Positions 3,997-48,968 of a DNA stretch of 52,972 nt are shown piece after piece. The notes below the pieces were generated by a model. It was not told the DNA's origin, made no database searches, and was given only the letters and a program-made list of their open reading frames with translations. This stretch comes from Oscillatoriales cyanobacterium (GTDB lineage: Bacteria; Cyanobacteriota; Cyanobacteriia; CACIAM-69d), in contig RDXB01000050.1 of the NCBI GenBank assembly GCA_004292515.1, positions 1 through 52,972 on the forward strand. Reading direction: 5' to 3'. The translations under genes and the position numbers were made by a program. Within the stretch, counting starts at the first letter, position 1; the number at the start of each line of letters is the position of its first letter.

Positions 3997-4525
3997 TCAA
4001 CTAGGACGGTTTTGCTATGATACCGATCGCCTAGGGAGTCTTGAGAATTGCGCCGCCAAATCCATCGTGAGCACCATGATCACAATCAACGATTTTGATG
4101 TTGCGGATTGCAATGATTAACGACCCAACCCACCGGGACAATTAGCGCGATCGCCCCCCAGTAGCCGTTAGTCACTGAACGATTTGTTGACTCACTCGTT
4201 ACTCATCAACGGTGCAAAATAGTAGGTGCAAAATAGTAAGCATTGCTGTTGGGGGATGACCCGGCTAATTGTCCCCAATCCCCTTGCTATAGATTCCTGA
4301 TTGCGATCAGAATCCTAGTGACTGTTCCATCAGTCAATTGGCGATCGCATAATATCCTCGTGAGCAAAATTTGATCGTCTTAATTATTTTGGCAATTTTG
4401 CGCAACTTGCCGCTAGTCGTGCGCTAATTTAAAGGGATTGAAATCGCCAAGAATCGGTTAGTTGTTGTTGAGAAGTTGGGTTTCAGGCGCAATCAACCAC
4501 AACGCACCGCAGCCAACCCAATCTT
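3997..4525. other. Intergenic region without a gene
   Basis: No convincing coding sequence. It includes a 15-bp direct repeat of GTGCAAAATAGTA near 4211-4240, and a weak inverted pair of GTTGGGTT and AACCCAAT at about 4473-4523 that looks like a decayed relative of the GTAGGTTGGG element. The base composition from 4300 to 4440 is more AT-rich than the genes around it. Confidence 0.5.
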
Positions 4526-4804
4526 AGAGGATGTTTGAAAAGCCAGAATTGACACTGTGCACGCCCCATCGATCGACACAAACAAGAGGCTTAGGGCCTG
4601 TCATCAATTACCCTGAAACCCTGACTCCACCGTTAGCAGATCGTGGGGGCAAGGGGCTTAAGCCCTTTGTTACGACCATTGAGGCGCGGGAAATCGACGA
4701 TTTCAGACTCAGTTATGGAAAATGATGACACCCCCTAAGCCCCTTGGCTCCCACGACCATTGGTGCTTGGCCCGGGCCAAAAGGTACTTTGCAGACATCT
4801 CCTT
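4526..4804 (+). mobile_element. Family A MITE-like element, interrupted by a family B copy
   Basis: The left end is AGAGGATGTTTGAAAAG and the right end is CTTTGCAGACATCT, which are imperfect inverted repeats of each other. Internal A sequence (CCATCGATCGACAC... and CGACCATTGGTGCTTGGCCCGGGCC) matches the complete copies at 22214-22348 and 48836-48968. The element is split at the TA in the middle of its palindrome by 142 bp of family B. Removing that insertion and one TA restores a continuous A element. Confidence 0.85.
4594..4735 (-). mobile_element. Family B MITE-like element nested in family A, with TA duplication
   Basis: The ends are GGGCCTGTCATC (4594-4605) and GATGACACCCCC (4724-4735), near-perfect inverted repeats. 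TA dinucleotides flank it at 4592-4593 and 4736-4737. The interior carries the palindromic core and the phrase TTACGACCATTGAGG. A 64-codon open frame covers part of it but is repeat-derived. A TA target duplication is the hallmark of IS630/Tc1-mariner transposases, which would have to act in trans. Confidence 0.85.
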
Positions 4805-4858
4805 GCAGACGGCTCGTTATGAGTGATCTTGTCGCACCTCCAATGCATTCTCAAACCT

Positions 4859-9717: not shown

Positions 9718-10218
9718 CGCGATCGCCTCCTGCCCCTTCGTCGGGTGCGTTCCCCGGTCTCAATTCCCTGCCACAGTCATAGCAGCGCGATCGCCACCGT
9801 TGGTATTGCAGCACCATTAGCCCCGGACGGGCAACGACTACACTGGAGACAGGCCGGGCGCATTGCAAACTGGATTGGCAATCGAGGCGGATCATTCAGA
9901 GCCTGACGAGTACTTGAAATTGAGTACCGCAGCTTGAGTGCTGGAACGTTGAAGGGTGCATGGATCGTTCATGGGCTGATCAGTCCCAGGGGTTGACTTA
10001 ATCGTGGATTGATCGTCCAGCGGCAAAACGCGATCGGTTGGGTCAATCTGGGCTTGGGTCAATCTGGGCTTGGGTCAATCTGGGCTTGGGTCAATCTGGG
10101 CTTGGGTCAGTCTGGGGCAGTTGGGATCAGCGCTGATGAGCAACCGGCAACCCCGCGATCCCCTGAGATCGTCTCCCTTGGACAGTCACCCTTGAGTAGC
10201 CATCGTTAAATAGCCATC
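9718..10218. other. Intergenic region between dacB and glycosyltransferase
   Basis: The two flanking genes are divergent, so promoters for both should lie here. No reading frame looks protein-like. The only structured element is the 16-bp tandem array at 10038-10117. Confidence 0.5.
10038..10117 (+). repeat. Tandem repeat, five 16-bp units
   Basis: Four exact copies of TTGGGTCAATCTGGGC and a fifth degenerate copy (TTGGGTCAGTCTGGGG). The array lies 100 bp upstream of the glycosyltransferase start. A period of 16 puts no constraint on a reading frame. It may be simple slippage DNA or a variable spacer in the 5' region. Confidence 0.95.
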
Positions 10219-13386: not shown

Positions 13387-13646
13387 TGTCCACGCCCCAG
13401 TTGTCATCACAAGGGGCTCCAGCCCTGTCGCCATTTCCTAGGAGCAAGCTGAAACAGTTGATTTTCCATGCCCCAGCCGTCGTAACAAGGGGCTTAGGGG
13501 CTGTCGTCATTGCCAGTAGGGATGCTGAAACGGTTGATTTTCTGTACCCCAATGGTCGTAACAAGGGGCTTAAGCCCCCCTTGCCCCTAACCATCGATCG
13601 CGTTACGGCGGAATCAGGATTGCCGGCGATTTGACAATAGGCCCTA
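13387..13646 (+). mobile_element. Nested family B elements (two or three levels)
   Basis: Successive left halves, each ending in an AACAAGGGGCT-like core half, begin near 13387, 13421 and 13497, but only one right half follows. The innermost copy (13497-13644) starts GGGGCTGTCGTC and ends TTTGACAATAGGCCC. It is flanked by TA at 13495-13496 and 13645-13646. The pattern fits repeated insertion into the palindrome centre followed by loss of outer right halves. The right end supplies the stop codon of the neighbouring TsaC-family gene. Confidence 0.75.
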
Positions 13647-22213: not shown

Positions 22214-22348
22214 AGAGGGTGTCTGAAAAGCCAAAATTGATACTCCAGATACCCCAGCGATCGATGCAGACAAGGGAATTAAGCCCCTGGCTTCCCAGCG
22301 ACCCTTGGTGCTTGGCCCGGGCCAATTGATCCTTTGCAGACACCCTCT
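22214..22348 (+). mobile_element. Complete family A MITE-like element
   Basis: A 135-bp element with ends AGAGGGTGTCTGAAAAG and CCTTTGCAGACACCCTCT. Relative to the copy at 48836-48968, the left end changes GGATGTC to GGGTGTC and the right end makes the matching change to GACACCC, so pairing is preserved. The central palindrome is degenerate. Confidence 0.85.
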
Positions 22349-29050: not shown

Positions 29051-29410
29051 AGGGGCTTGGGGGTGTCGTCATTTCCCGTCATGAGTCTGAAATCGTCGAT
29101 TTTCTACGCCTCAATCGTCGTAACAAGGGGCTTAAGCCCCTTGCTGCCCCACGATCCACTAACGGCAGAATCAGGGTTTCAGGGATTTGATGACAGCCCC
29201 TAAGCCCCTTGCTGCCCCACGATCCACTAACGGCAGCATCAGGGTTTCAGGGATTTGATGACAGCCCCTAAGCCCCTTGCTGCCTCACGATCCATTAACG
29301 GCAGCATCAGGGTTTCAGGCGAATTGGTGACAGACCCTAAGCCCCTTGCTGCCTCACGATCCATTAACGGCAGCATCAGGGTTTTAGGCGAATTGGTGAC
29401 AGACCCTAAG
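29051..29410 (+). mobile_element. Family B element with four tandem right halves
   Basis: One left half (from GGGGGTGTCGTCATTTCCCG to the palindromic core at 29124-29143) is followed by four right halves. Each runs from TAAGCCCCTTGCTGCC to a GTGACAG(A/C)CCC or GATGACAGCCCC end. The TAAG boundaries fall at 29133, 29201, 29269, 29338 and 29407, giving a 68-69 bp period. Later units diverge slightly (CACGATCCATTAACGG rather than CACGATCCACTAACGG), so amplification was stepwise. Confidence 0.9.
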
Positions 29411-29609
29411 CCCCCTGCTCCCGACGATCTCGCCACCACAACATCAGGGGGTGGGGAATTTGGTCAGAGTGCCTAGTTATCCCTCCAGCTCGTTAAATTC
29501 CTCATCGCTTGTGGGTAACCCTTCTCGCGACACGGCTACGATAGGAACAAGATCCATATCATCCGGATCAAGCTGACATCCAGCGACATCTAGCGCGTGA
29601 GGCACGAGT

Positions 29610-36290: not shown

Positions 36291-36966
36291 ACCAGCCCCG
36301 CATCTGATCCCAGGTGCAAAACTGGGCAGCCAAGGTGTCGCCGCGCGGATTGCAAACCCGCACGTTGTAGCCATATTCCCGCGCCACCCGCCCAAACTCG
36401 TTCAGATAGGCATACTGGCGCGGATATTCCAAGTTGTTCCAGGGCTGCAGGTTGAAGGTGACTTCCACCCAGGGCGGCAGTTCGTCATTGCCGGTGTGAA
36501 TGGTCCAGCGGTTGACGATTTTGCCGCCGAGCAAGTCGCGGGTTAACCAGAGGCTCGGCGGTGTCAGGCCCTGTTGGCGGATTTCCTTGTCCGTGGCGAT
36601 CGGCTCGTCCCCAAAGCAACCCGTTTGCCGAAAGGCCCGGTTGGGTTCTTCCTCGGGTTGGTCGCTGGTGGGATTACCAGTTGGATTACTGGTGAAATCA
36701 CGGGTGAGCGTAGCCGCCTGGCCGACGGTTGGATCAACCGATGTGGCGGTCTCGCTCGGGGGCGGGGGTGCGGCGTGGCGAGCGATCGAGTCGGCCGCTG
36801 GCTCGGGAGCGGCCTGGGCCGTCGGGACTTGGGCCGCCGCCGGCCAGTGGTTGCCCAGCCCCCCCAAGCCCAGACCCCCCAGTCCCAGTCCCCCCAGGCC
36901 CAGACCCCCCAGGCCCAGAACACTGCCCCAAGCGACGGCAACCCAAGAATGACGAGAGTGGTGCAT
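36229..36966 (-). CDS. Secreted hypothetical protein with Gly-Leu repeat in signal peptide
   Basis: A 245-residue protein that I cannot assign to a function. The start at 36966 (MHHSRHSWVAVAW) leads to a hydrophobic stretch built from GLGGL-type repeats (about residues 15-38) and then AAAQ, a likely cleavage site. A Pro/Thr-rich linker follows. The conserved-looking C-terminal domain of about 130 residues has four cysteines and motifs such as PSLWLTRDLLGGKIVNRW, NLQPWNNLEYPRQYAYLNEFG and FCTWDQMRGWSTCPIYLPG. The end overlaps the convergent GTPase gene by 62 bp. The DNA of the repeat (36855-36920) is nearly pure Gly/Leu codons. Confidence 0.75.
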   Translation of the reverse strand: MHHSRHSWVAVAWGSVLGLGGLGLGGLGLGGLGLGGLGNHWPAAAQVPTAQAAPEPAADSIARHAAPPPPSETATSVDPTVGQAATLTRDFTSNPTGNPTSDQPEEEPNRAFRQTGCFGDEPIATDKEIRQQGLTPPSLWLTRDLLGGKIVNRWTIHTGNDELPPWVEVTFNLQPWNNLEYPRQYAYLNEFGRVAREYGYNVRVCNPRGDTLAAQFCTWDQMRGWSTCPIYLPGGFSARVRSPLF

Positions 36967-38650: not shown

Positions 38651-38720
38651 GAGAGCCTGTAGAGAGCCTTTAGGGTGGGCAATGCCCACCGACTAACAGC
38701 CTCATAGCATCTGCGATCTG
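38651..38720 (-). repeat. Family C repeat, partial and reversed
   Basis: Read on the minus strand this is CAGATCGCAGATGCTATGAGG, then TTAGTCGGTGGGCATTGCCCACCCTA, matching 22351-22400 and 50213-50260. Its outer end has become the seed of the 14-bp tandem repeat. A fragment of the far end (GAGGTAAAGGCTGTA) appears in the opposite orientation at 38806-38820. Confidence 0.65.
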
Positions 38721-38792
38721 ATATCTGCGATCTGATATCTGCGATCTGGTATCTGCGATCTGATATCTGCGATCTGGTATCTGCGATCTGAT
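38709..38792 (+). repeat. Tandem repeat, six 14-bp units
   Basis: Six units of ATCTGCGATCTG(A/G)T with no indels. The unit is derived from the family C end ATCTGCGATCTG, so the array grew out of that repeat. It lies downstream of both flanking convergent genes. Confidence 0.95.
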
Positions 38793-38906
38793 GTGCCAAC
38801 TGTTTGAGGTAAAGGCTGTATCTTTAAACCTCTAGCAAACTAAACCTCCAGCAAACATCTAGAGTCAATAGCGCTAAATATCTAGAGTTCACAAAATTAG
38901 TCTGAT

Positions 38907-48835: not shown

Positions 48836-48968
48836 AGAGGATGTCTGAAAAGCTAAAATTGATACTCTGCATGCTCCATTAATCGACGGAAACAAGGGGC
48901 TTAAGCCCCTTGCTGCCACAACTATTGGTGTCTGGTTCGAGCCGAAAGGTACTTTTCAGGCATCCTCT
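48836..48968 (+). mobile_element. Complete family A MITE-like element
   Basis: A 133-bp element with ends AGAGGATGTCTGAAAAG and CTTTTCAGGCATCCTCT, inverted with one mismatch. The intact palindrome AAGGGGCTTAAGCCCCTT is at its centre. It is the best-preserved A copy in the window. It lies between the divergently oriented ends of two minus-strand genes. Confidence 0.88.

Follow-up and report, generated by a model that had tools for sequence, protein, structure and literature searches.

In the window, by which I mean the whole stretch of 52,972 bp of cyanobacterial DNA analysed here, a short element (B) lies inside the central palindrome of another (A). It is highly probable that A and B represent two different families of IS5-type MITEs moved by transposases acting in trans, that B belongs with an IS427-like element that prefers the palindrome, and that B landed in an older A. 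The evidence comes from the structure of the locus, the TA duplications around B, its repeated insertion in both orientations, the enrichment of these insertions at one target, and the ends that B has in common with IS5 elements. The nesting is clear but ordinary, and A and B are ordinary IS5-type MITE families; the unusual feature is a single palindrome, common to the middle of A, B and a third family, which is also the hot spot of B.

Structure of the nested locus

The nesting of B within A is real and was confirmed by reading the sequence directly: B (4594-4735, 142 bp) splits A, which runs from 4527 to 4802 including its guest. The earlier note had placed the arrangement at 4526-4804, and of this the nesting holds while the exact limits do not. 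The features are as follows.

4524-4526, no strand: left target duplication of A, TTA, of the TNA type; its right counterpart is TTG, with one base changed
4527-4593, plus strand: left half of A, with end GAGGATGTTTGAAAAG and inner edge CAAGAGGCTTA, including the left half-palindrome CAAGAGGCT and one TA
4592-4593: TA, left copy of the target duplication of B (direct reading)
4594-4735, plus strand: element B, 142 bp, with inverted ends GGGCCTGTCATC and GATGACACCCCC
4651-4668, no strand: palindrome in the middle of B, AAGGGGCTTAAGCCCTTT; B targets this same motif
4736-4737, no strand: TA, second copy of the target duplication of B (direct reading)
4738-4802, plus strand: right half of A, beginning with AGCCCCTTG and terminating in CTTTGCAGACATCTCC
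4803-4805, no strand: right target duplication of A, TTG, degenerate, the TTA/TTG flanks being one base off
22215-22347, plus strand: empty copy of A, 133 bp, without B (by alignment)
48837-48967, plus strand: empty copy of A, 131 bp, without B, flanked by TGA/TGA

Deleting B and one TA in silico leaves an A of 132 bp with an intact CAAGAGGCTTAAGCCCCTTG, the centre of which is ACAAGAGGCTTA joined to AGCCCCTTGGCT, i.e. ACAAGAGGCTTAAGCCCCTTGGCT. This rejoined A aligns, each time with a single gap, to the B-free copies at 48837-48967 (81% identity), at 22215-22347 (79%) and at L056:5798-5928 elsewhere in the genome (84%), and the gap falls off the junction, about 9 bp from it in the two alignments viewed base by base. 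The inverted-repeat ends with a TA on either side, the palindrome that is restored once B and one TA are removed, and the greater age of A at this site, all proposed beforehand from the window sequence, are thus borne out by the ends, by the TAs at 4592-4593 and 4736-4737, and by the match of the rejoined flanks to empty copies of A.

The locus lies upstream of a pxcA/CemA gene. Both A and B are absent from this locus in two congeners (G001 and G002), where the suggested search for an empty A in relatives was carried out; the flanks there have diverged too far for a base-by-base alignment and for the exact empty site to be seen.

Where B inserts

In order to obtain an unbiased sample, 40 stretches of 20 kb were taken together with the window, 852,972 bases (0.85 Mb) in all. 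The sample holds 37 near-complete copies of B, of which 24 have TA at both ends, in agreement with the claim that TA is the target. Eight of these 24 TA-flanked copies sit in the palindrome AAGGGGCT-TA-AGCCCCTT, a site being called when at least 12 of 16 bases match, against a background of 79 among the 22,614 TA sites of that sample; the enrichment over all TA sites is about 95-fold. The other 16 copies lie outside the palindrome, mostly with YTAR flanks.

The motif AAGGGGCTTAAGCCCCTT occurs 413 to 482 times in this genome (413 at up to 2 mismatches), with 0 to 3 occurrences of the reversed control. Two congeners have 364 and 156 copies and a sister genus 71, and five distant cyanobacterial genomes have 17 to 54 each (reversed control 0 to 1). 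Three families, A, B and a further one, C, have this palindrome in their middle. A text search of the literature for GGGGCTTAAGCCCC returned no paper. Family C, whose ends are close to TAGTAGCGCGGC and whose centre is AAGGGGCTTAAGCCCCTT, is seen at about 1584-1711 of the window and at L042:3831, L046:19604 and L052:15653. Solo copies of GACAAGGGGCTTAAGCCCCTTGTC are found in distant families (L102-L106, in genomes G022, G020, G017, G013 and G027; one example was read per genome, none of them in A or B), and to the right of the one at L105:1501-1518 (contig C1 of G013), half-palindromes TAAGCCCCTTGTCTAGC follow in tandem about four times.

I infer that the transposase itself recognises the palindrome, and that the pattern does not simply come from where insertions survive. 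The opposite explanation, which I regard as possible but doubtful, is that B inserts at any YTAR and that copies in the palindrome either survive better, disturbing no gene, or profit from a cruciform that exposes the TA. It agrees with the 16 of 24 copies outside the palindrome and their mostly YTAR flanks, with the autonomous relatives that sit elsewhere in ordinary YTAR sites, and with the central hairpin of B, which forms in the minimum-energy structure. However, the enrichment of about 95-fold would still exceed twentyfold if only about a quarter of all TA sites were tolerated (an estimate, not a measurement), and the only insertion sequence in this family known to carry the ends of B lies in the palindrome as well. 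Survival may nevertheless account for part of the enrichment, as the palindromes are largely in MITEs outside genes. I do not argue for a hairpin-guided mechanism, since B folded as single-stranded DNA does not differ significantly from shuffled sequences (z = -1.44).

With the preference placed in the enzyme, a broader hypothesis can be put forward tentatively: a central GACAAGGGGCTTAAGCCCCTTGTC would be common to three or more unrelated MITE families of cyanobacteria (A, B and C among them), the IS5-type transposase of B would actively recognise it, and each insertion would supply the next target, with nested arrays of B as the result; the palindrome might even be a module of its own, mobile or captured.

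The enzymes behind B and A

Among the PF01609 loci of six genomes of the family, an insertion sequence with both the left and the right end of B was found in G004, from a sister genus. It measures 862 bp (L129:1473-2334), ends in GGGGGTGTCGTCATTT and GGGGCTGTCGTCAA, and sits between CAAGGGGCTTA and TAAGCCCCTTG within B-like sequence, i.e. in the same palindrome, with a TA duplication. Its two overlapping reading frames, of 123 and 150 aa with the A6G slippery motif GCAAAAAAGGGGG at the overlap, match PF13340 (DUF4096, 101.5 bits) and PF01609 (DDE_Tnp_1, 50.9 bits), as well as the NCBIfam model NF033580 'IS5 family transposase' (140 and 135 bits); the protein is 100% identical in the MAG MS008 bin-008_6 (L191). 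Relatives of this element in cyanobacteria and other bacteria terminate in GGGCGTGTCATCAATTA or close variants. By end sequence alone, 56 distinct IS5 transposase loci could be delimited; TA stands on either side of 52, and a YTAR context is found in 55 of 58 TA-flanked relatives. The left end of B, GGGCCTGTCATCAATTAGC, is the end of such IS5 elements (one end at L161, for example, is GGGCCTGTCATCAATTAGCT), and the resemblance between B and its partner is limited to the ends, about 12-19 bp.

On these sequence matches, the enzyme that moves B is very probably of the IS5 type, and the dependence of B on a transposase supplied in trans, as proposed earlier, is supported; that an IS5 transposase actually moves B I infer from the common ends. 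The partner can provisionally be called IS427-like from its size, the layout of its reading frames and the length of its duplication. Neither this genome nor its two congeners yielded an intact insertion sequence with the ends of B, and the other DDE transposases of this genome (L034-L036) have other ends, or none that were detected. The helper of B may be absent, or may have been lost in the assembly gaps (111 contigs), and B may now be an orphan.

The earlier note had assigned B to an IS630/Tc1-mariner-type transposase, and this part is not supported. The TA duplication, a trait of IS630/Tc1-mariner that B does have, is not diagnostic and does not support the assignment, because it is also common to the IS427 group of IS5. 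An IS630-type element with the ends of B was not found in this genome, nor was a pair of B-type ends seen around the transposase gene at any PF13358 (IS630) locus, a few of which are cut by contig ends, in this genome or in five others of the family. The small size of B would be compatible with an IS630 MITE, as would its duplication, and the genome does encode IS630 transposases; yet the insertion sequence that bears the ends of B codes for IS5-type proteins, and dozens of IS5 loci have similar ends and TA flanks, which makes movement by an IS630 transposase very improbable.

Element A is a non-autonomous MITE of 130-135 bp with a central palindrome and its own 3-bp target duplication, TNA rather than TA. 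Copies flanked by TTA/TTA, TGA/TGA and TCA/TCA occur; TNA is present on 21 of 34 flanks, and the 3-bp flanks are identical in 4 of the 17 copies that were delimited. The ends of A, GAGGATGTCTGAAAAG, are the same but for one base as those of a DUF4096/DDE_Tnp_1 element in G003 (L133:1189-2085; 897 bp), flanked by TAA/TAA and with a broken reading frame, and they also match a longer degenerate DUF4096/DDE_Tnp_1 element in G005 (L132). Because of this match A is taken to be of the IS5 type with a 3-bp duplication. The autonomous-type partners of A and B were both found in other genera and none in this genome.

Copies of B across the genome

B has the characters of a MITE: 142 bp, no transposase gene, terminal inverted repeats GGGNCTGTCATC, a target-site duplication and many copies. 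When the genome (3.98 Mb) was searched and 40 of about 470-500 candidate places were scored for each query, there were at least 65 matches to A plus B and at least 56 to B alone, and at least about 40 related copies of B were scored genome-wide. The interior of B was sought in named genomes by exact pattern, with no match, so that in the form given it is not widespread.

The context of B was read in windows around 30 scored places. Copies of B with the orientation of the surrounding A are found at L001, L005, L009, L020 and others, copies with the opposite one at L003 and L026, and copies at unrelated TA sites at L006, L010, L022, L027 and L029; the recurring TA flanks at unrelated sites and the repeated independent insertions uphold the claim that B is mobile. 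The copy in the window is 98.6% identical to one (L002, contig C62) that has no A around it. The closest kin of A-borne copies are mostly outside A (L012 for L005; L013 and L019 for L026), and the A-borne copies do not cluster together. Since their nearest relatives are mostly outside A, the copies of B in A are independent insertions and not copies of one composite. It is hardly credible that A and B are a single composite that copies itself whole, or that recombination between a pair of palindromes gave rise to the arrangement: A and B do occur together at several loci, but in both orientations, with the TA duplicated, with the nearest relatives just described, and most of the 17 copies of A delimited in the sample have the empty length (about 130-175 bp).

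At L015, B is inserted in B, in the order left, left, palindrome, right, right, an arrangement explained by the target palindrome that B carries at its own centre. Two compound copies of B lie in the window:

13497-13644, minus strand: copy of B with a second right half of B (13426-13496), read as B nested in B
29059-29464, minus strand: copy of B (29059-29200), then left halves of B, 68 bp each, in tandem (29201-29464)

Serial nesting was considered for the second and rejected; since several left halves face a single right half, later tandem duplication, or deletion after nesting, is more likely. Short tandem repeats are also seen in the window at 38695-38804 (14 bp), 10038-10117 (16 bp) and 36854-36928 (15 bp).

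Discussion

The course of events was very probably as follows. IS5-family (DDE) transposases would move A and B in trans, each of them being non-autonomous. A, as a TNA-duplicating IS5-type MITE, inserted first, upstream of the pxcA/CemA gene, and B later, at the central TA of the palindrome of A. The IS427-like transposase of B would cut at the TA within YTAR and duplicate the TA, with a strong preference for AAGGGGCTTAAGCCCCTT, and as B has that same palindrome at its own centre, each insertion would leave a new target.

These observations correct the transposase family assigned to a very abundant cyanobacterial repeat, and they indicate that a TA duplication by itself is insufficient for an IS630/mariner call in bacteria. 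If the transposase truly recognises the palindrome, B would offer a natural case of an element that brings its preferred landing site along with it; such an arrangement would spare genes and yield nested elements and tandem arrays of half-elements.

MITEs of IS630/Tc1-mariner resemble B in the TA duplication and the short inverted ends, but their transposase (DDE_3) is unlinked to the ends of B in all genomes searched. Some groups of the IS5 family other than IS427 make a 3-bp TNA duplication; the 897-bp element of G003, with flanks of this kind, has ends like those of A, whereas A is non-autonomous, with an unrelated interior and a central palindrome. Members of the IS427 group of IS5, such as IS1248, ISPpa6 and ISPam4, are 832-865 bp long and have two overlapping reading frames with a frameshift motif; their inverted ends are short and their duplications mostly of 2 bp (PMC3281130). 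The partner of B in G004 is alike in its size of 862 bp, the overlap of its frames, the A6G motif and the TA duplication, while B itself lacks the reading frames and has only the ends in common; a preference for a palindrome is not mentioned in the passages on the group.

The MITEs of Anabaena sp. 90 (PMC3542288) and Nezha (as cited in PMC10969869) are like A and B in being non-autonomous, 100-300 bp long, present in many copies, mostly intergenic and bounded by inverted ends. The Anabaena MITEs have no recognisable partner insertion sequence (PMC3542288), whereas here an IS5-type partner is identified and the site of nesting is fixed. Precise insertion of a small repeat or insertion sequence into an iterated palindrome has parallels in SDR5, for which the palindrome is HIP1 (PMC4390886, citing Elhai et al. 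2008), and in IS1111, for which it is that of QMITE2 in Coxiella (PMC10969869). These are other elements and other palindromes, and B differs from them in that it also contains the target palindrome itself.
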